Source: a virus
IMG/VR virus record: IMGVR_UViG_3300027754_004967
Coordinates: 1 to 63,651 of that record
Direction: 5' to 3' (one strand)
DNA: 63,651 bases
The number at the start of each line of letters is the position of its first letter. The stretch's first letter is position 1. Positions 599-12,568 of the stretch are shown here, in pieces. The notes under the pieces are model-generated. The model ran no database searches. It was not told the DNA's origin and worked only from the letters and a program-made list of their open reading frames with translations. The translations under genes and the position numbers were made by a program.

Positions 599-666
599 TC
601 TCCTTCGGACCATGGTGAAACAGGATATCGCAGAACTTGAATACTTAGTCAAGGTAAGGAGTTCAA

Positions 667-1422
667 GTGATTTGTGAGAACTGTTCAGCAGAACACTCGG
701 GAAGCTATGGGAGTGGAAGATTTTGCAATTCCAAGTGTGCAAGAGGTTATTCTACAAAGACAAAGCGAGCTGAGATCAGCAAGAAAGTCTCAGCATCCAT
801 TAGACGTGCCCATGGAACGGACTTGCTGACATGTCCGTCCTGTCAGTCCCAGTTCTCATGGGATCATTTTGCGACTGCAGCTGAAAAACTTGGCACAAAG
901 GAAACTAAGTTTTGCAGCAAGACTTGCAAACGAGCAGCGAAAGATTCTCAAAATTGTTCTCCTGTTTTTCGACAGAAAATGTCAGATGCCGCGGTCAGGA
1001 GACTAGAGATGGGAGACGTTTGGTTTGGGAAGCAGAATCACATTGAAGCTTTCGGAAAGTCGATAAGGTGTGACTCTCTTCTTGAGAGAAGCTTTGTTCT
1101 AATGATGTCAAGAAACTCACTCATCAAAGATGTAAGAAGATCTGGCGTTTGGATTCCCTACGCGGATGACGAAATCAAGCGACAATACAATCCTGACTTT
1201 GTTGTTGAGTTTTCTGACGGGACTCTTGCAGTCGCTGAAGTCAAATCTGAAAGAATAGGAAAACGCGACGTCTGGGAAGATTACAGAAAGAAGTCAGAGA
1301 TCAAGCGCAGACTCCTTGAGGATTACGCAGCTTCCAACGACATGAAATTGATCTGGTACACTCAGAAAACTTCTCCACAAACTTATAAAGAAGTTTGTAA
1401 ATGCGTTTCACCTGTAGTATAG
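667..1422 (+). CDS. Putative homing endonuclease, PD-(D/E)XK type with zinc fingers
   Basis: The 251-residue product begins with a cysteine-rich finger (CENC near residue 3, FCNSKC near residue 19) that closely matches the N-terminus of the HNH endonuclease at 11619. A second finger (CPSC near 55, FCSKTC near 80) follows. The C-terminal half carries a nuclease-like core: LLERSF around residue 140, NPDF around 174 and AEVKSE around 189, which resembles a PD-(D/E)XK active site rather than HNH. The GTG start at 667 is preceded by TAAGGAG. It lies 39 bases upstream of an atypical tRNA-Arg-like gene, as the other three endonucleases of the window lie 5' of tRNAs. Such enzymes normally make site-specific breaks that spread their own gene; the target here is inferred to be the tRNA locus. 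A TnsA-like or Vsr-like role is an alternative. Confidence 0.7.
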   Translation: MICENCSAEHSGSYGSGRFCNSKCARGYSTKTKRAEISKKVSASIRRAHGTDLLTCPSCQSQFSWDHFATAAEKLGTKETKFCSKTCKRAAKDSQNCSPVFRQKMSDAAVRRLEMGDVWFGKQNHIEAFGKSIRCDSLLERSFVLMMSRNSLIKDVRRSGVWIPYADDEIKRQYNPDFVVEFSDGTLAVAEVKSERIGKRDVWEDYRKKSEIKRRLLEDYAASNDMKLIWYTQKTSPQTYKEVCKCVSPVV

Positions 1423-1461: not shown

Positions 1462-1538
1462 GTCCTCATACCGGCTTCGTTTCCTAAACGAAGTACCGTA
1501 ACTGGATTATGCTGGTTCGAGTCCAGCTGAGGACGCCA
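1462..1538 (+). tRNA. Atypical tRNA-Arg(CCT)-like gene lacking a D-arm
   Basis: The acceptor strands 1462-1468 and 1528-1534 pair over 7 bp, and C1461-G1535 could extend this. The T-arm at 1511-1527 is canonical with loop TTCGAGT, and CCA is encoded at 1536-1538. An anticodon-type hairpin (1476-1492) has loop TTCCTAA, giving anticodon CCT (Arg, AGG). There is no room for a D-arm before it. Instead the hairpin can extend to about ten base pairs through CGG 1472-1474 with CCG 1496-1498, and the variable region is about 18 bases. It may be a decayed tRNA, a tRNA whose 5' half was remodelled by the upstream endonuclease, or a tRNA-like RNA. Confidence 0.45.
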
Positions 1539-3025: not shown

Positions 3026-3046
3026 GGGGGCGTAGCTCAGCTGGGA
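3026..3046 (+). pseudogene. Orphan 5' half of a tRNA-Ala gene
   Basis: GGGGGCG followed by TAGCTCAGCTGGGA reproduces the acceptor strand and D-arm start typical of bacterial tRNA-Ala, then the similarity stops. It does not pair with the 3' acceptor strand of the intact tRNA-Ala downstream. The HNH gene begins about 50 bases later and ends inside that tRNA-Ala. The fragment looks like the left remnant of a tRNA gene split by insertion of the HNH gene. Confidence 0.5.
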
Positions 3047-3097
3047 AAACTTCAAATTTGATTGCAATTTATTTGCTCTCCCAGAATAATTAGGTTT

Positions 3098-3673
3098 ATG
3101 TGGACATGCAAACATTGCAAGAATAATTTTGAGTTTGATTCTTTGTCTGATAAAGCTAATCACTCTAGATGGTGCGAAAAAAATCCAAAAAAAGAAAACA
3201 CTGAGAGCTTAAAACTCGCGCAGTCACTTTCAGTAGAAAAAAGACTTGGGCCGATTCAAGAATTTGAAGTCTTTTGCGAGACTTGCTCCAAACTCTTTAT
3301 GATTAAAGAGAGAGCAAAGAAATTTCCGTCTAAAGAAAAATACTTTTGCTCAAGAAGCTGCGCAAATTCTTTAGGCGGAAAAGCAAAATCAGAAAAATAC
3401 AGGATCAATGAACCGAAGCATTACGTAGCTATTGCGTGGAAATACCATGATAAAGTTTGCTGCGTTTGCGACGAAAATAAGATTGTAGCTGTTCATCATT
3501 GTGATGAGAATCACGACAATAATGATCCAAAAAATCTAGTTCCTCTTTGTCCAACTCATCATCAGTACATGCATAGCAGATACAAAATCGAAATACAAGA
3601 TAAAGTTCAGAAATACATCAATGATAAATGGGCTGTAAGTGTTGTCGGGGGCACACGGGCTTTGCAAGCCTGA
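3098..3673 (+). CDS. HNH homing endonuclease overlapping tRNA-Ala
   Basis: The 191-residue product has an N-terminal zinc finger (CKHC near residue 4 with a later His and Cys), a second finger (CETC near 63, FCSRSC near 87), and an HNH core near residues 133-160: AVHHCDENHDNND followed by LCPTHH. CCVCD at about 122 and CPTHH supply likely zinc ligands. I chose the ATG at 3098; an in-frame TTG at 3062 has no better binding site. The last 15 codons lie inside the tRNA-Ala gene and the stop TGA is in its anticodon arm. HNH homing enzymes nick or cut a specific site and are copied in by repair. The DNA is AT-rich compared with nearby genes, which fits transfer. Confidence 0.85.
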   Translation: MWTCKHCKNNFEFDSLSDKANHSRWCEKNPKKENTESLKLAQSLSVEKRLGPIQEFEVFCETCSKLFMIKERAKKFPSKEKYFCSRSCANSLGGKAKSEKYRINEPKHYVAIAWKYHDKVCCVCDENKIVAVHHCDENHDNNDPKNLVPLCPTHHQYMHSRYKIEIQDKVQKYINDKWAVSVVGGTRALQA

Positions 3674-3704
3674 AGGACCGGTTCGATTCCGGTACGGTCC
3701 ACCA
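3630..3704 (+). tRNA. tRNA-Ala(TGC), 5' half shared with HNH gene
   Basis: The acceptor GGGCTGT/ACGGTCC pairs with two G-T wobbles, one of them G3-U70, the known tRNA-Ala identity pair. The D-arm is GTG/CAC, the anticodon stem CGGGC/GCCTG, loop TTTGCAA (anticodon TGC), T-loop TTCGATT, CCA encoded. The 5' half is unlike typical tRNA-Ala and is also the 3' end of the HNH coding sequence. Confidence 0.82.
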
Positions 3705-3742
3705 TTCAACAATCGCACGAGAGTGCACAATCAAGGAGAAAA

Positions 3743-4051
3743 ATGCGTAACTTCACGATCTCTGCTTTTGCAGTCGCAGCTCTGGCCCTTGCTGGCTGCC
3801 ATCATGACGATGACAAGGACGACGACACTGTTACCTGCCCTCAGGATACTGCTGGTCAGGACACTGCCGTGACCGATCCGGTTGACACCGCGGACACCAG
3901 CGGTGGCGATACTGCCGATACTTCGACTCCGCAGGATACGGCGTCCCAGGATACCGGGGCTGACACTGGTGCTGGTAGCGACACCGGCGCAACTGATACT
4001 GGCGCTTCCAGCGACACTGGTTCCGGCGGCACCGACACCTCGGCTCCCTAA
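3743..4051 (+). CDS. Asp/Thr-rich lipoprotein (102 aa)
   Basis: The ATG at 3743 follows AAGGAG. Residues 1-18 form a lipoprotein signal peptide ending in the lipobox LALAGC, so the mature protein would be lipid-anchored at Cys19 in the host envelope. An acidic stretch (HHDDDKDDD) follows, and the rest is low-complexity repeats of D-T-A/G/S. This composition is familiar from lipoproteins of marine Myxococcota-like bacteria. Related small lipoproteins occur at 5515 and 10788. Possible roles are receptor masking or exclusion of other phages, which is inference only. Confidence 0.85.
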   Translation: MRNFTISAFAVAALALAGCHHDDDKDDDTVTCPQDTAGQDTAVTDPVDTADTSGGDTADTSTPQDTASQDTGADTGAGSDTGATDTGASSDTGSGGTDTSAP

Positions 4052-4059
4052 CAGATTTT

Positions 4060-4151
4060 GGGAGAGCTGCTAGGGCGGTGGTCTAGCGACGAGCTGTAAA
4101 CCCGTTCCCTCAGGGCAAACACTGTCAGTTCGAATCTGACCTCTCCCACCA
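4060..4151 (+). tRNA. tRNA-Tyr(GTA)
   Basis: Class II tRNA with acceptor GGGAGAG/CTCTCCC, loop CTGTAAA (anticodon GTA), a long variable arm with CCC/GGG, T-arm GTCAG/CTGAC and encoded CCA. The anticodon stem has one mismatch. Confidence 0.92.
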
Positions 4152-4156
4152 TCGAA

Positions 4157-4232
4157 GGACTATAGCTCAGTTGGTTAGAGCTAGCGTTTCATACACACTC
4201 GGTCACTTGTTCGAATCAAGTTAGTGCCACCA
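4157..4232 (+). tRNA. tRNA-Met(CAT) (or Ile2) with bulged acceptor
   Basis: Loop TTCATAC gives anticodon CAT. The D-arm GCTC/GAGC and the T-arm ACTTG/CAAGT with loop TTCGAAT are good, and CCA is encoded. The acceptor pairs as GGACTA with TAGTGCC only if the G at 4226 is bulged, and the anticodon stem has one C-A mismatch. It could be an elongator Met tRNA or a lysidine-modified Ile tRNA. Confidence 0.85.
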
Positions 4233-4233
4233 T

Positions 4234-4308
<75 letters not shown>

Positions 4309-4312
4309 CATT

Positions 4313-4389
<77 letters not shown>

Positions 4390-4546: not shown

Positions 4547-5329
4547 ATGTTTTCATGCGACTGTGAGTTTTTGACAGATTCTCTTAGAACTTTAAGGAGT
4601 CATTACGCAGCAAATCACGGCAGCGGAATCTCTTTCTTTGAAAAGTTCGATGACGTAATCACTTCCAATTGGGAAGATTTCCCACAAAGAGCGATTCGCT
4701 CGTTCTTACTTTGGAAGTCAAATTACAAATGCACGTCATGTGGATACGAAAAAACACGAGAGTGCGGTGCTTCGATACTTGAAGTTGATCACATCGATGG
4801 AAATCATGATAATAACTCTTTAAGTAACCTTCGCATTCTTTGCCCAAACTGTCACGCTCTAACTCCAAAATATCGAAATTGGTCGAACAAAGGAAACGAA
4901 AAGCATGCTTCATCACTAAGACCGGGTAATGCTGGTTATAATGAAAGGCACAAGACCCAAGAAGCGAAGAGATTTGAACGACAACTCAAAATTGAAACGA
5001 AGAAAGCTCAGACGACTGAGATAAAACGTGATAAGAAGAAAGTTTTTCGAGAGTTTGAAAAAACTAAGATTAACTTTCAGGAAAGGTTTATTCAAAAAGT
5101 GAATGAGCTTCATCAATCTAAAGAGATTGACTTTTCAAAGTATGGATGGGTTCAGTTATTAGCTGAACGTTGTAATGAACATCCACAAGTCGTCGGTCGT
5201 AGAGTTCGCTCACTAATGCCTGATTTTTATCTTGAACATTGCTTCAGCAGAAGATATAATCATTACATCAAGAATATGGAGAGCATCCGGCCAGATGAGG
5301 AAACAGCCTTGAAAACTGTCGCGGGTTAA
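4547..5329 (+). CDS. HNH homing endonuclease overlapping tRNA-Ser(TGA)
   Basis: The 260-residue product starts with a C2H2-like finger (CDCEF near residue 4, HYAANH near 21). CTSCGY (about residue 64) begins the nuclease domain, whose HNH core is VDHIDGNHDNN (about 83-93) then LCPNCH (about 103-108). A long Lys/Glu-rich, probably helical linker (130-200) leads to a C-terminal DNA-binding-like segment. The final 17 residues are encoded inside the tRNA-Ser gene and the TAA stop is in the tRNA variable arm. Just upstream, an ACCGAGGGTTCGAAT string resembles part of the tRNA-Pro gene nearby and may mark an insertion boundary. It is probably a free-standing mobile endonuclease. Confidence 0.87.
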   Translation: MFSCDCEFLTDSLRTLRSHYAANHGSGISFFEKFDDVITSNWEDFPQRAIRSFLLWKSNYKCTSCGYEKTRECGASILEVDHIDGNHDNNSLSNLRILCPNCHALTPKYRNWSNKGNEKHASSLRPGNAGYNERHKTQEAKRFERQLKIETKKAQTTEIKRDKKKVFREFEKTKINFQERFIQKVNELHQSKEIDFSKYGWVQLLAERCNEHPQVVGRRVRSLMPDFYLEHCFSRRYNHYIKNMESIRPDEETALKTVAG

Positions 5330-5366
5330 GAGCCCGTTGTGGGTGCGAGTCCCACGCTCTCCGCCA
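5278..5366 (+). tRNA. tRNA-Ser(TGA), 5' part shared with HNH gene
   Basis: Acceptor GGAGAGC/GCTCTCC, D-arm TCC/GGA, loop CTTGAAA (anticodon TGA), long variable arm CGGG/CCCG, T-arm GTGGG/CCCAC, CCA encoded. The anticodon stem has one C-A mismatch. The first 52 bases are also the end of the HNH coding sequence. Confidence 0.88.
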
Positions 5367-5514: not shown

Positions 5515-5862
5515 ATGAAGCTCGCTAATGTCCTACTTCTTCTTCCTCTCCTCACCCTTGCAGCATGCGGCGGAGATGATGACAAGACCAGCACCGTTGA
5601 TACCGCAGCTTGCGGTGAGGGTGATACCAGCTCGGTCGATACTGCTGTGACTGTCACCTGCACCGACGCCACGGGCACCTACGACGTCGGCGCCACGTGG
5701 ACCTGCGAGGATGGCTGCAACTCCTGCTCTTGCCAGGAGGATGGAACGGTCGCTCAGACCGAGATGGCGTGCCCTGATACCGGTGACACGGGCGGTGAGG
5801 TTCCCCCTGACACTGGCTCCTCTGATACGGGTTCCTCTACCGACACCTCCACCGAGGGTTGA
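5515..5862 (+). CDS. Lipoprotein with small Cys-rich VWC/pacifastin-like domain
   Basis: The ATG at 5515 is preceded by AAGGAA at a good distance. Residues 1-17 form a lipoprotein signal with lipobox LAAC, followed by GGDDDK. Residues about 45-86 contain a Cys-rich motif with spacing like von Willebrand C or pacifastin modules (TWTCEDGCNSCSCQEDG). The tail is Asp/Thr/Ser/Gly-rich. The protein should be anchored in the host envelope. It lies only four bases upstream of the cytochrome c peroxidase gene, so the two are probably co-translated and may act together. Its partner and role are unknown. Confidence 0.85.
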   Translation: MKLANVLLLLPLLTLAACGGDDDKTSTVDTAACGEGDTSSVDTAVTVTCTDATGTYDVGATWTCEDGCNSCSCQEDGTVAQTEMACPDTGDTGGEVPPDTGSSDTGSSTDTSTEG

Positions 5863-5866
5863 TAAA

Positions 5867-6856
5867 ATGATCGCGATTCTTTCCCTGCTCATCGCATGCT
5901 CCGATGCCAGCAACGTTGCGGAGCCCGTAAATCCGCAGATCACGGATGCTGTCACGGTTGATCGTACTAAGCTTGGAGCGTTCCAGCCGCTCCCGGAAAA
6001 CTTCTTCATTGCGGGAGCGGAGCCTTCTCCTGATCTGATCTTTCTCGGTCGCCGTCTCTTCTTTGAGACCCAGCTCTCGGCCGACGCCAACATGTCATGC
6101 TCCACCTGTCATAATGTTGCGAAGGACGGCGCTGATGAGCATAAGTTCTCCCCGGGTCACAAGATGACGCCGGCAGGTCGTAACTCTCCGACGGTCTTCA
6201 ACGCAGCAGGACAGGCTTCCCAGTTTTGGGACGGTCGAGCAAAGACGGTCGAGGAGCAGGCACTCGGTCCTATCCTCGCTGCGGGTGAGATGGCGATGCC
6301 GGATGCCGAGACCGTTGCCCGCGTCCTCAAGGAGGATCCCACCTACGTTGTTGAGTTCGCGAAGGCATTCCCGGGTGAGAAGGATCCCCTCACTTTTGAG
6401 AACGTCGGTGTCGCCATCGGTGCCTACGAGCGAACGCTGGTCACACCCTCCAGGTGGGACGCTTTCCTCCAGGGTGACGATGCCGCTCTCACCAACGACG
6501 AGAAGCGGGGCCTCAATACCTTCATGGAGGTCGGTTGCACGGCATGTCATAACGGCACTCTTCTCGGTGGTGCGTCTTTCATGAAGCTCGGTGCTGTGGA
6601 GCCTTGGCCCAACCAGGCAGACCAGGGGCGATTCGGAGTGACGGGACAGGAAACCGATCGGATGGTCTTCAAGGTGTCTTCCCTTCGCAATTCCACTGAG
6701 ACGGCACCCTACTTCCACGATGCATCTTCCGAGAGCCTGGGCGCAGCCGTCTACATGATGGGAAAGCACCAGCTTGGTAAGTCTCTCACCCCTGAGCAGG
6801 TGACTGATATTGTGAGCTTTCTCGGGTCCACAAAGGGAAATCCAGCTTCCTTCTGA
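5867..6856 (+). CDS. Di-heme cytochrome c peroxidase (CcpA/MauG family), lipoprotein form
   Basis: The 329-residue product carries two c-type heme motifs, CSTCH at 78-82 and CTACH at 224-228, and the family segments LFFETQLS, NSPTVFNA, QFWDGRAKTVEEQALGP and APYFHDA. Enzymes of this family reduce hydrogen peroxide with electrons from cytochromes in the periplasm. The N-terminus MIAILSLLIAC has a lipobox ending at Cys11, so it may be membrane-anchored. I chose the ATG at 5867 over an upstream in-frame start because the latter would overlap the lipoprotein gene and give no signal peptide. The length fits the family. A phage-borne copy is highly unusual; maturation would rely on the host heme-attachment machinery. 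Confidence 0.93.
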   Translation: MIAILSLLIACSDASNVAEPVNPQITDAVTVDRTKLGAFQPLPENFFIAGAEPSPDLIFLGRRLFFETQLSADANMSCSTCHNVAKDGADEHKFSPGHKMTPAGRNSPTVFNAAGQASQFWDGRAKTVEEQALGPILAAGEMAMPDAETVARVLKEDPTYVVEFAKAFPGEKDPLTFENVGVAIGAYERTLVTPSRWDAFLQGDDAALTNDEKRGLNTFMEVGCTACHNGTLLGGASFMKLGAVEPWPNQADQGRFGVTGQETDRMVFKVSSLRNSTETAPYFHDASSESLGAAVYMMGKHQLGKSLTPEQVTDIVSFLGSTKGNPASF

Positions 6857-8022: not shown

Positions 8023-9204
8023 ATGAACAGAATCCCACGTTTACTACTTTTCGCCCTTCTGCTGCCACTCGAGAACGGCTGCATGGATTCTGAGCTTCAT
8101 CCGGTTAAAGATCCGCCTCCGGATGGGACGCCTGCGATCCAGGTCGACCCGGAGTCAATTGACTTTGGGATCGTTCCAGCGGGTGAGAGCTCAGCTAGCA
8201 TCATAACGATGTCATCGGTGGGTTCTGTCGCTCTCAATGTGACAGCGATGCAGATAGGAGAGGGACGAGAGACGTTCACGCTCCTTGAGCCATTGACGGG
8301 AACATATGAGCCTGATGATTCTGTTGAGCTAACGATCACTTACAATTCAGATGGGAGTGAAACAAGCGGTGTCCTTCAAATCCTTTCTAACGATCCTAGC
8401 CATCCTAATACTAGTGTGCCTCTGCTAGCTCACGCAGAGATCAATGTCGATACGGGAGAGACAGGCGATACTGCACCGCCACTTTCGCAACCCGTTGCAG
8501 TCTGCTCCGTTGATCCGATTGAGGTGGAGGCGATTCACGGATCAGCCGATTGGGTCGGAAATTCTTCATACGATTCAGATGGTTCAATCGTTGATTATCG
8601 CTGGACGTTGATCTCGTCACCAGCGGGTGCAACAGCAACAACGCCAGCTGGAACTGCGAATCGTCGTAACTTTGTTCCTGATGTCGCTGGAGAATACATC
8701 GGAGAGCTTGTAGTGGTCGACAACGATGGCCTAGAGTCGGAGCCGTGTCAGGCGACCTTGAACGCCACCGCTGGTAGCGGTCTCTGGATCGAGATGTTCT
8801 GGACCTACTCGGGAGATGACATGGACCTTCACCTCCTGGATGACGGTGGGGTCCTGACGGGAACATCCGACTGCTATTACGCGAACTGCACCTGGGGCGG
8901 ACTTAACTGGGGCGCCGCAGGCACTGCTGACAACCCCGTTCTCGATCTCGATGACATCATGGGAACTGGTCCCGAGAACATCAACATCGACTCACCGGCA
9001 CGAGGGACCTACACGGTCTACGTGCACGACTACCCAGGTTCCGTCTACATGGGTCAGAACGACGTTACGGTGAGTGTGTATCTTGGAGGCTCTCTCATCT
9101 GGACTGACACTAGAAACGTCAACTCGGAAGGTTGCTATGAGCCGTTTGTTGAAGTCAACGTTCCTGGAGGGGCTACGACCGATCTTTACGGCAGCTGTAG
9201 ATGA
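8023..9204 (+). CDS. Large lipoprotein with ASH-like, PKD-like and C-terminal beta domains
   Basis: Residues 1-20 form a lipoprotein signal ending in a lipobox-like LENGC. About 40-135 resembles an ASH/choice-of-anchor-D immunoglobulin fold (IDFGIVPAGESS, then LQILSNDPSHPNTSVPL). A DTGETGDT linker follows. About 150-250 resembles a PKD domain (YDSDGSIVDYRW). The C-terminal part (about 255-393) has GDDMDLHLLDD and TYTVYVHDYPG, like a DUF2135/YfaP-type module, with paired cysteines. This architecture is typical of cell-surface lipoproteins of Myxococcota-like bacteria and suggests capture from the host. It probably sits on the host outer membrane. The function could be receptor masking, adhesion or cell-cell contact; none is shown. 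Confidence 0.88.
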   Translation: MNRIPRLLLFALLLPLENGCMDSELHPVKDPPPDGTPAIQVDPESIDFGIVPAGESSASIITMSSVGSVALNVTAMQIGEGRETFTLLEPLTGTYEPDDSVELTITYNSDGSETSGVLQILSNDPSHPNTSVPLLAHAEINVDTGETGDTAPPLSQPVAVCSVDPIEVEAIHGSADWVGNSSYDSDGSIVDYRWTLISSPAGATATTPAGTANRRNFVPDVAGEYIGELVVVDNDGLESEPCQATLNATAGSGLWIEMFWTYSGDDMDLHLLDDGGVLTGTSDCYYANCTWGGLNWGAAGTADNPVLDLDDIMGTGPENINIDSPARGTYTVYVHDYPGSVYMGQNDVTVSVYLGGSLIWTDTRNVNSEGCYEPFVEVNVPGGATTDLYGSCR

Positions 9205-9574: not shown

Positions 9575-10601
9575 AGTGACCTAGATCAGCCAGAACAAGC
9601 TCACCTGTCTCCGGCCTTAGCATGATGTTGTTTCCGTGAACGTCAGACGGATTGATGTTCATTGACTTTAGATCCTCAAGTGCGCTCACGAGTTCCCGGA
9701 CTCCCTTGATTCTTCCAAGCGGTCCAGGGACTTCTTTCGTCGGCTCTTTCGGAACCGCTCGACGTCCGAGCAAGCTCGTTATTGAGCTCATTATCATCTG
9801 ATTCAACGACTGTATTGAACCAGGTCTGGTGATTCCAAGCGCGCGGCACCAGAGCTCAACTTTCTTTCCAATCGCCGATCTTAGTCCGTCAATGGCCGAG
9901 AGCATTATTCCACTACCTTGATCTGTTACCTCAGGGTCATAAGATGCGGAGACCAGCATTTTCTTAAGTCTGCTGAATTCTTCGGCTGGGTCTGATTTTC
10001 TTGGAGCACCGGCAATCGCTGCGTCGACCGCGCGCTTCGATCTGCTCATTGCCTCATCAACGACTGCTGAGAAAGCTTCACGATCGCTAACAAGAGAGCC
10101 TAAAGAGTGGATGGATCGAGTCGCTGGCTGGGTAATGAGATCGAACATATTTCCCGGTAGCTCCTCGAGTCTCTCCATGACAATGACACCCAGATTCTCT
10201 GGACTTCCAAAGTCATCAGTTGGAAGCGGAACTCCCAGGTCCTCTAGCGTTCTGATCTTATAGATCACTGGCATATGGCGAGCAACCCGGTCTGGTAGTC
10301 TGACAATCGCTTGCTGGGCGCGTTTGTAGCTCTCGATCTCATTCAGGGGCTGAATCTTAAGAATTACGTTTTCATTTCTCTCGTCGACGGCTGAGAATGT
10401 GTAAGCTCCGTACAGCCTCTTGGATCTTGACAGGTATCGAACGTCGGCCAATCCCATCTCTTCTGCGACATCTTTGGCCACACTTTCCATCTTCGCTCGT
10501 CTCTGCACAAACGGATCTGCTGGGACATGGTGGGCTGGTAGTGGCGCGGTGGCGTCCGATTCCAGCATCAAGCGTATCAGCTTTCTTAGGTTTCCGTTCA
10601 T
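9567..10601 (-). CDS. Protein-kinase-fold protein
   Basis: The gene lies alone on the minus strand. The 344-residue product has a possible ATP-binding Lys82 (VILKIQP), a hinge-like VIVMERLEEL around 145-154, and, at the extreme C-terminus, SDVHGNNIML (Asp320, Asn325) followed by LADLG (Asp339), matching the catalytic and metal-binding loops of RIO/ABC1/phosphotransferase kinases. The N-terminus LRKLIRLMLES carries the recurrent tag. I chose the ATG at 10601; a TTG seven codons upstream is possible. It may phosphorylate host proteins or small molecules. The placing of the catalytic loop so close to the C-terminus suggests a reduced C-lobe. Confidence 0.82.
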   Translation of the reverse strand: MNGNLRKLIRLMLESDATAPLPAHHVPADPFVQRRAKMESVAKDVAEEMGLADVRYLSRSKRLYGAYTFSAVDERNENVILKIQPLNEIESYKRAQQAIVRLPDRVARHMPVIYKIRTLEDLGVPLPTDDFGSPENLGVIVMERLEELPGNMFDLITQPATRSIHSLGSLVSDREAFSAVVDEAMSRSKRAVDAAIAGAPRKSDPAEEFSRLKKMLVSASYDPEVTDQGSGIMLSAIDGLRSAIGKKVELWCRALGITRPGSIQSLNQMIMSSITSLLGRRAVPKEPTKEVPGPLGRIKGVRELVSALEDLKSMNINPSDVHGNNIMLRPETGELVLADLGHFT

Positions 10602-10616
10602 CTTGTTAAATATTCG

Positions 10617-10645
10617 TTGCAAATTGAACTCGTCACCAGTATAGT
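10617..10645 (+). promoter_or_regulatory. Sigma70-like promoter for tRNA-Leu(TAA)
   Basis: TTGCAA (10617-10622) and TATAGT (10640-10645) are 17 bases apart, and the tRNA begins 11 bases after the -10 box. It matches the promoter at 1395 closely. It also overlaps the 5' end region of the divergent kinase-fold gene. Confidence 0.55.
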
Positions 10646-10655
10646 CTTTCTGTTG

Positions 10656-10731
10656 GCCCCGGTAGACCAGCGGCAGAGTCAGGAGACTTAAAATCTCTGT
10701 AGGGCGGGTTCGAATCCCGCCCGGGGCACCA
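10656..10731 (+). tRNA. tRNA-Leu(TAA), class I shape
   Basis: Acceptor GCCCCGG/CCGGGGC, anticodon stem GGAGA/TCTCT with loop CTTAAAA (anticodon TAA, UUA codon), T-arm GCGGG/CCCGC, CCA encoded. The variable loop is only about five bases, whereas bacterial tRNA-Leu normally has a long variable arm as in the Leu(TAG) at 4396. Confidence 0.88.
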
Positions 10732-10787
10732 CTCTGTTTATAGTCTCAGTAAAAGAGTTAAAATTAACGTCTCAAAGGAGAAGCACA

Positions 10788-10895
10788 ATGAAGTTCGTCA
10801 TTCTTGCAGTTCTCGGTTCTCTCTTCCTCGGTGGTTGCACCGGTGGTAAGGACGATACCGGCACTGATACGAGCTCTGCCACTACGGCCGAGTGA
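10788..10895 (+). CDS. Tiny Asp/Thr-rich lipoprotein (35 aa)
   Basis: The ATG at 10788 is preceded by AAAGGAG. The peptide has a hydrophobic signal and the lipobox FLGGC, then TGGKDDTGTDTSS, so about 18 mature residues would be displayed on a lipid anchor. It resembles a shortened version of the lipoproteins at 3743 and 5515. A terminator follows directly, so it forms a transcription unit with the tRNA-Leu upstream. Confidence 0.75.
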   Translation: MKFVILAVLGSLFLGGCTGGKDDTGTDTSSATTAE

Positions 10896-10917
10896 TCCTA
10901 AAGCTCAAAATAGAGCG

Positions 10918-10946
10918 ACGGCTGGCACTGGTTGCCAGCCGTTTTC
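10918..10946 (+). terminator. Intrinsic terminator
   Basis: ACGGCTGGCA (10918-10927) pairs perfectly with TGCCAGCCGT (10933-10942) around loop CTGGT, followed by TTTTC. It closes the tRNA-Leu/lipoprotein unit. Confidence 0.82.
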
Positions 10947-10971
10947 ATATTTACGAGCGGAGAAAATTAGC

Positions 10972-11568
10972 ATGCTAACTGCAATTGGCGACGTGATGAG
11001 GAAGTGCTACGATCGTGGATGGATCACAAATCGTGACGGAAATATCTCACTGTGTCGTAATAACTCGAAGACTCTGTACATCACGCCTTCAGGCTGGAGG
11101 AAGACTATCATCCACCCAGAGCATATCGTGAAGTGCAAGCTTGTCGATGACGGCGTAATCGCTCCTTCCGGACAAACCGCAAGCGGTGAGCTTCATATGC
11201 ACTGGCTCATTCAGAAGGATTTCACAAAAACCCGCGCCGTCGTTCATGTTCACGCGACCCATGTGGTTGCAGCAATGTTTGCAGGTTGGGACCTTCAGGA
11301 GCTCGCCAGACAGTTTCCAGAAGTGAACCGGTACACCCGAGTAGGGCCTAACGTACCTGCCCTGCCGGCAACATCACGTGAACTGGGCGATATGACTGGG
11401 GTGCATCTGGGGTGCCTACCGGACGGGTCGCTCCAGTATGATATCGTAGGGCAAGCGAATCACGGGGTCTGCGCAGTCGCTGGTGATCCGTGGTCAGCTT
11501 TTGAGCACGTTGAGCGTCTCGATCACATCTGCGAGATTGTGCTAAAAAGTGGCGTGAAGCCGAAATAA
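10972..11568 (+). CDS. Class II aldolase/adducin-family protein
   Basis: The 198-residue product begins at the ATG at 10972 with GGAG about 9 bases upstream; the longer in-frame extension would read through the terminator. Family marks are NRDGNIS (about 22-28), ITPSGW (about 40), SGELHMH (about 77) and the zinc-binding VVHVHATH (about 95-102). Members cleave or isomerise sugar phosphates (fuculose-, ribulose- or methylthioribulose-phosphate type). The length is slightly short but complete. It could feed the sugar pathways encoded after 29 kb, though it lies far from them. The substrate cannot be assigned. Confidence 0.87.
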   Translation: MLTAIGDVMRKCYDRGWITNRDGNISLCRNNSKTLYITPSGWRKTIIHPEHIVKCKLVDDGVIAPSGQTASGELHMHWLIQKDFTKTRAVVHVHATHVVAAMFAGWDLQELARQFPEVNRYTRVGPNVPALPATSRELGDMTGVHLGCLPDGSLQYDIVGQANHGVCAVAGDPWSAFEHVERLDHICEIVLKSGVKPK

Positions 11569-11618: not shown

Positions 11619-12299
11619 ATGTTCGAATGCGAAAATTGCTCAATCTCTCATGATGCCTCGTATGGAAGCGGAAGATTCTGCAGCGCAAAATGTTCGAGGT
11701 CATTTTCGACTAGATCGAAGAGAAAAGAGATAAATGAAAAAGTCTCAAAGTCTTTGTCTGGTAGAGAATGTCCCAAAGATTTTGAGTGTGATGGGTGCGG
11801 TAAAAAATTCGGTTCGAAGATGGCTCTGATAGGGCACAAGTCAAATTGCGATAAAAATGATGCAAAGCTTGAACGCGAAAGATATAATCAAAACAGATTG
11901 GAAGTCAAGCTAAATGCTTCATTTGAAGAACTTTCAATCATCTTGAAAAGAGAAAAAATTTTCCGTGAACAATCTGGTAAATGTAACCATTGCGGATTAG
12001 AAAACTGGCTCGGACAAAAAATAACTCTAGAGCTTGAACATCGCGATGGAAACACAAATAATAATGACAGATCGAACCTAGAGCTTCTTTGCCCAAATTG
12101 CCATTCTCTAACTCACACGTGGAGAGGCAGAAATAAAAGCAAAAGTAACTCTAGAAAAAGAGTGAGTGATGAAGATCTTTCAGAAGCACTAAAAAGCAGC
12201 TTGTCAATTCGTCAGGCGCTGATTAAAGTTGGTTTAGCTCCTAAAGGTGCAAACTACTTCAGAGCGAAAAAGTTAAAAGAAAATTTAACGGGCCTTTAG
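11619..12299 (+). CDS. HNH homing endonuclease upstream of tRNA-Lys
   Basis: The ATG at 11619 follows AGAGGATT. The 226-residue protein has an N-terminal finger (CENC at about 4-7, FCSAKC at about 21-26) nearly identical in layout to the enzyme at 667, a C2H2-like finger (CDGCGKKF at about 66), and an HNH core with ELEHRDGNTNNND (about 144-156) and LCPNCH (about 164-169); CNHCG near 125 completes the zinc site. The C-terminal region (SIRQALIKVGLAPKG) looks like a helix-turn-helix. The TAG stop lies at bases 8-10 of the tRNA-Lys gene. That tRNA carries a group I intron without an ORF, so this enzyme could be the factor that mobilises it. Confidence 0.9.
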   Translation: MFECENCSISHDASYGSGRFCSAKCSRSFSTRSKRKEINEKVSKSLSGRECPKDFECDGCGKKFGSKMALIGHKSNCDKNDAKLERERYNQNRLEVKLNASFEELSIILKREKIFREQSGKCNHCGLENWLGQKITLELEHRDGNTNNNDRSNLELLCPNCHSLTHTWRGRNKSKSNSRKRVSDEDLSEALKSSLSIRQALIKVGLAPKGANYFRAKKLKENLTGL

Positions 12300-12568
12300 C
12301 TCAACTGGCAGAGCAAGGGACTTTCAATGGAAGCTTCAGGGAGAAATCTCTGTCGAACACAGCCCAAATTCGGGGAACTCTTAACAGGTAATGCTGATGA
12401 CAATCCCGAGCGAAGCCCGAAAGGGAACGTGTAGAGACTAGAGGGGCTGCACCCTAACGAGAAAGACGAGGGTGATGGTATAGTCCAGACCACGAACTGC
12501 AAAGGCGACGAAAGTCGAAGTGGTATGTAATCCCAAGGTTGTGGGTTCGATTCCCACAGGGCCCACCA
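12290..12568 (+). tRNA. tRNA-Lys(TTT) interrupted by a group I intron
   Basis: Exons 12290-12324 and 12528-12568 join to give acceptor GGGCCTT/AGGGCCC, D-arm GCTC/GAGC, anticodon loop CTTTTAA (TTT) on a GGGA/TCCC stem, T-arm GTGGG/CCCAC and encoded CCA. The intron lies between positions 35 and 36, the same site as in tRNA-Asn. Confidence 0.92.
12325..12527 (+). ncRNA. Group I intron in tRNA-Lys (203 nt, no ORF)
   Basis: P1 forms from exon CTTT plus intron C with GGAAG, giving the U-G pair at the splice site. The core shows P (AAATTCGGGGAACTC), Q (CAATCCCGAGCGAAGC), R (GTGTAGAGACTAGAG) and S (GTATAGTCCAGACC) elements, and the intron ends in G12527. The core is clearly related to the tRNA-Asn intron, while the guide sequence differs to fit its own exon. 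Confidence 0.92.

Follow-up and report, generated by a model that had tools for sequence, protein, structure and literature searches.

A free-standing HNH nuclease gene between an orphan tRNA-Ala 5' half and a probable replacement tRNA-Ala in a phage tRNA cluster, and the recurrence of this arrangement in other phages

Results

An orphan tRNA-Ala 5' half, an HNH gene and a complete tRNA-Ala lie in a row

The DNA analyzed here, referred to as the window, is the 63,651-nucleotide (63.7-kb) virus record IMGVR_UViG_3300027754_004967, which has a tRNA cluster at 1.4-12.8 kb. Within this cluster the first 21 bases of a tRNA-Ala (3026-3046, +) stop abruptly, an HNH gene follows (3098-3673, +) and a complete tRNA-Ala(TGC) stands at 3630-3704 (+). 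The initial annotation had described this arrangement from the sequence alone, and our analyses confirmed that it is real. The orphan 5' half, GGGGGCGTAGCTCAGCTGGGA, occurs once in the window, with none expected in 100 shuffles even when three mismatches were allowed. With GAGC added it matches many bacterial genomes exactly, this 25-mer being the start of ordinary bacterial tRNA-Ala genes, and two near-matches to canonical bases (AAAC for GAGC) may carry the orphan on to base 25 (3050). In an isotype-aware scan the orphan scored 19, a score reached by 0.7% of 300 random masked windows (p 0.007). An exact search for the 3' part of the tRNA-Ala returned no match.

The HNH reading frame has its ATG at 3098 and its stop at 3671-3673, and encodes an N-terminal zinc-finger-like part and a C-terminal HNH domain. 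It matched PHROG phrog_7545 (HNH endonuclease) at E 5.9e-8, whereas the match to Pfam HNH_2 was weak, and alignment with relatives showed conserved HH, N, N and H residues and CxxC pairs. The frame runs 44 bases into the tRNA, however the conserved C-terminus of relatives (..KYINDKW / ..HQYVLNW) ends exactly at tRNA base 1. We therefore rejected the possibility of a tRNA-derived protein tail, as the overlap is read-through to the first in-frame stop, which the tRNA supplies.

The tRNA-Ala(TGC) was identified by ARAGORN and by RF00005 (46.9 bits) and folds as a cloverleaf. Its acceptor pairs at 7 of 7 positions, including G3-U70 and U5-G68, and its D stem is unusual (GUGU/GCAC). We considered whether the odd D arm marks a rebuilt, nuclease-resistant tRNA, but rejected this as a general sign because odd D arms are common in phage tRNAs and HNH-adjacent tRNAs are no more deviant than other phage tRNAs (p 0.12; tRNA-Ala p 0.39). 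The D arm is consequently not evidence either way.

The initial annotation interpreted the locus as an insertion that broke a tRNA and restored it from the element's own end, with the ancestral tRNA equal to the orphan 5' half plus the present 3' half. This interpretation is partly supported. That a nuclease element broke a tRNA gene, and that a seemingly working tRNA was restored with sequence from the element, is supported by comparisons with empty sites at other loci, including one in the same window (below). The proposed ancestral tRNA is not supported: in the comparison that had been named in advance as a test, the orphan acceptor formed only 3 of 7 pairs with the present 3' strand, against 7 of 7 for the present 5' half, so both halves were exchanged. 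The orphan is still not an unrelated remnant, as it is of the same isotype as the downstream tRNA, and it is best read as what remains of a displaced resident tRNA-Ala, most of which was replaced.

The same pairing result bears on whether the HNH gene belongs to a group I intron, or its remnant, with the orphan and the downstream 3' half spliced together. In favor of this, group I introns split tRNA-Lys and probably tRNA-Asn in this window and some related HNH genes lie inside or next to split tRNAs (loci L011, L056 and L098). However, no intron match was found between 3046 and 3630 even at E 5, the orphan acceptor cannot pair with the 3' half, and the downstream tRNA is complete on its own. 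We consider the intron explanation largely refuted and very unlikely. The locus also does not resemble an integrase-type genomic island in a tRNA, as there is no integrase gene between the orphan and the tRNA, and it is the 5' part, not the 3' end, that is duplicated.

Most relatives of the HNH gene lie flush with tRNA genes, beside tRNA-Ala in one clade and tRNA-Pro in the other

Relatives of the HNH protein, identified in viral contigs and in cultured phages, nearly all lie beside tRNAs. In 27 of 43 family members the reading frame ends within -60 to +15 bases of a tRNA start, against 31 of 331 control frames in the same loci (p 1.6e-14). A tree of the HNH proteins separates two sets, and the HNH of the window falls in the first. 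In that set 14 of 15 members have tRNA-Ala next to them by ARAGORN, and the fifteenth (locus L095) has one by eye, whereas in the other set 25 of 28 have tRNA-Pro (Fisher p 2.8e-9 and 1.2e-7, although members of a clade are not independent). Small phage nucleases of other families show the same flush layout at the 5' end of a tRNA gene.

Upstream of the nuclease there is often a tRNA 5' half that belongs to no complete tRNA. A first scan with each tRNA's own 5' end missed orphans with a different acceptor, and we therefore used a scan with a library of 5' halves, which favors canonical halves. In 15 of 22 loci with a detectable orphan and a downstream tRNA the isotypes agree (permutation p 5e-5, a value inflated somewhat by related phages). 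The clearest orphans reach the anticodon loop (L097, Ala, to base 36; L137, Pro, 37; L138, Pro, 38; L110, Pro, about 39; L147, Thr, 36), while others, like that of the window, end near base 21-25. Usually the orphan's acceptor differs from that of the downstream tRNA, but L045 and L137 pair fully. Many flush HNH genes show no orphan. Conversely, at locus L029 (2030-2120) an orphan tRNA-Leu 5' half stands directly before a complete tRNA-Leu with a different acceptor and no nuclease between, which could be a scar left after nuclease loss.

It is feasible that nuclease genes end up next to tRNAs by ordinary gene shuffling, whether by chance or because tRNA clusters tolerate insertions, and that the fragments are pseudogene debris. 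tRNA clusters are recombination-prone, SegB-type nucleases are known tRNA neighbors, and some random windows also hold fragments (top null score 27). Such shuffling predicts no link between HNH clade and isotype and no exchange specific to the anticodon arm, yet both were found. Given also the zero-distance placement, the isotype-matched orphans and the replacement confined to the tRNA or its anticodon arm between nearly identical flanks (below), we think this explanation unlikely.

Comparison of occupied and empty sites in cultured phages

At three sites in cultured phages the flanks are nearly identical but the tRNA is replaced, wholly or in part, where the nuclease gene is present. Vibrio phage nt-1 has an HNH gene plus tRNA-Ala where CZ01, QD01, KVP40 and phi-Grn1 have a plain tRNA-Ala. 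Between nt-1 and CZ01 the right flank is identical at 150/150 positions but the tRNA at only 48/76, and the imported tRNA of nt-1 is canonical. Cronobacter phage LPCS28 (HNH plus tRNA-Thr) and S13 likewise have right flanks identical at 150/150 positions and tRNAs identical at 59/76, with the acceptor and D arm nearly the same and the anticodon to T arm different.

The third site is in T5-like phages, of which four have an HNH gene ending at tRNA-Thr (HdH2, MET_P1_137_112, PMBT27 and LM 4-14-1) and five do not (H8, BF23, S113, mar003J3 and SuperGirl). The anticodon arm differs at 8 of 17 bases and, for HdH2 against H8, the rest of the tRNA at 2 of 58 (p 5e-5), so that essentially only the anticodon arm differs. 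The arm allele follows the HNH gene in 9 of 9 and the HNH-bearing phages belong to more than one genus, although the phages are related. The HNH-linked arm CGG..CCG also occurs in LPCS28, which is of a different virus family. In addition, in BF against Erwinia phage SNUABM_19 an HNH-bearing block replaces a tRNA-Pro array, with the left junction inside a tRNA-Pro.

The same event at a second locus in the window

A 171.5-kb contig (L354/L176) is a close relative of the window, its helicase being 95% identical. The first 28 bases of its intact tRNA-Arg(CCT) are identical to window positions 606-633 (29/29 with one flanking base, 605-633, +), where they stand as an orphan before a nuclease gene at 667-1422 (+). 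The product of this gene has a zinc finger and a TnsA-like nuclease domain (Pfam PF08722, E 1.3e-4, below cut-off). Behind it lies a different, rebuilt tRNA-Arg(CCT)-like gene at 1462-1538 (+), with a right flank (1543-1649) that is 95% identical to the relative. This is a direct empty-site proof, at a second locus, of the layout described in the initial annotation. The rebuilt gene has a fully paired acceptor (7/7), a T arm and a fold z of -3.9, but almost no D arm, which is very unusual outside mitochondria, and it may not work. For the Ala locus itself no empty site was found, as the relative has no tRNA-Ala there.

Other tRNA loci in the window also differ from L354. An HNH gene at 4547-5329 (+; Pfam HNH 9.5e-5, PHROGs E 5e-19) is flush with a tRNA-Ser(TGA)-like gene at 5278-5366 (+), the first 52 bases of which lie in the HNH frame and which matched a tRNA-Sec model at 35.3 bits, below cut-off. 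A search of viral contigs returned no close relatives of this HNH. Both phages carry a nuclease flush with the tRNA at this site, but the nucleases and tRNAs are different (tRNAs 52/92 identical) before a conserved right flank. An HNH gene at 11619-12299 (+; PHROGs E 1.5e-28) has its stop in bases 8-10 of a tRNA-Lys(TTT) at 12290-12568 (+), which is itself split by a group I intron at about 12325-12527 (RF00028, 56.6 bits, above gathering score). The relative has an intact tRNA-Lys with neither the HNH gene nor the intron. The tRNA-Asn(GTT) at 1738-2009 is split in the anticodon loop by a probable group I intron (RF00028, 32.9 bits, below its cut-off of 50), where the relative has a GIY-YIG frame flush with an intact tRNA. 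In L354 (reverse complement, 10514-11248 and 3585-4331) a TnsA-like nuclease is fused to tRNA-Ser(TGA) and a GIY-YIG frame to tRNA-Asn, so the layout is not limited to HNH genes.

A tRNA-like stretch at 2016-2105 has two T arms in a row before one acceptor 3' strand (weak mascRNA-type match, E 0.75) and may represent nested tRNA remnants. A di-haem cytochrome c peroxidase gene (MauG family, Pfam E 9.5e-50) lies at 5864-6856 and is also present in L354, and several small lipoprotein-like genes with Asp-Thr-rich repeats (3743-4051, 5515-5862, 8023-9204 and 10789-10896) are found among the tRNAs.

Discussion

We propose, with fairly high confidence, that the HNH gene is a free-standing (intronless) homing endonuclease gene that homes into tRNA-Ala genes. 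The comparisons show that nuclease genes are gained flush with a tRNA, that the tRNA or its anticodon arm is exchanged at the same time, with donor sequence running from base 1 at least through the anticodon arm and sometimes covering the whole tRNA, and that old 5' halves can remain. We infer from DNA sequence alone that the enzyme cuts a recipient's tRNA-Ala, most likely in or near the anticodon arm, that repair from a donor carrying the nuclease flush against its own tRNA copies both nuclease and tRNA sequence, that the old 5' half stays upstream as an orphan where the left side of the break has no homology to the donor, and that the imported tRNA is expressed, so that the phage keeps a working tRNA, and differs enough to escape being cut again. 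In this view the element would work like a natural home-and-rescue drive, and the window would hold this state for both Ala (3026-3046) and Arg(CCT) (605-633). Resistance of the imported tRNA is the weakest inference, since D-arm oddness is not enriched, the tRNA of nt-1 is canonical, and only the T5-like pairs point to a recoded target.

An alternative is that the orphan is an unrelated leftover and that the HNH gene and tRNA-Ala arrived together as an ordinary recombination module, with no cut in the resident tRNA. The failure of the orphan to pair with the present 3' half, the lack of an empty site for the Ala locus in the relative, and a left junction about 11 bases upstream of the tRNA in the T5-like phages are consistent with this. 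However, orphans that end in the anticodon loop at independent sites, and the exact orphan of the relative's tRNA-Arg(CCT) beside a nuclease in the same window, point to breaks inside the tRNA, and we believe this alternative to be unlikely.

The closest systems are the free-standing phage homing endonucleases, in particular SegB of T4 and T6, which cuts within tRNA genes (PMC13096335, PMC2988022). SegB is likewise an intronless nuclease gene in a tRNA cluster, with tRNA genes as targets and co-conversion of flanking DNA on homing. However, it is a GIY-YIG enzyme, sits with tRNAs of many isotypes and has a cut motif (RAWTSGAAC) that in our reading looks like the T-loop, whereas the families here are HNH or TnsA-like and one clade keeps to one isotype, sits flush with the tRNA, brings a replacement tRNA body or anticodon arm and leaves orphan 5' halves. 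Neither orphans nor replaced tRNA arms are mentioned in the passages of these papers that we examined. Mitochondrial mobile ORFs (mORFs) of Allomyces atp6 and Glomus atp6/atp9/cox2/nad3 (PMC3630166) also insert in a gene, supply a foreign working part of it and leave the displaced native part beside it, as is seen here in the orphan beside a different, complete tRNA. There, the 3' end of a protein gene is replaced by elements encoding LAGLIDADG or GIY-YIG enzymes, whereas here it is the 5' part of a phage tRNA gene, by HNH or TnsA-like nucleases. Collaborative homing of the F-CphI type is named in PMC6083498. In such homing a nuclease gene outside an intron may move with a group I intron, as the HNH gene at 11619-12299 and the tRNA-Lys intron may, although the Ala case has no intron. 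HNH genes in horizontally acquired tRNA clusters have been noted in mycobacteria (PMC6582537), but in the open-access literature, to which our search was limited, we found no account of isotype-bound HNH genes with orphan 5' halves and replaced tRNA arms.

A broader possibility, which we regard as about as likely as not, is that several nuclease families in phages (HNH, TnsA-like and GIY-YIG) have become isotype-specific parasites of tRNA genes, each recognizing the anticodon arm of one tRNA, carrying a cleavage-resistant rescue copy of that tRNA's 5' half and leaving orphan halves as scars. Such elements would be natural home-and-rescue drives and a main force behind tRNA turnover and odd tRNAs in phages. 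They would share the logic of synthetic home-and-rescue (HomeR) drives (PMC7968924), an engineered Cas9 system in insects, namely copying into a target gene and restoring its function with a different allele, although in the phage elements resistance of the rescue copy is inferred only.

Why phages carry, swap and lose tRNA genes is an open question, and odd or broken phage tRNAs are usually written off as pseudogenes. If tRNA genes are homing targets and each nuclease brings its own replacement, then part of the phage tRNA repertoire is set by selfish nucleases and not by codon usage, which may explain why phage tRNA genes change so fast, and would represent a natural counterpart of engineered home-and-rescue drives.
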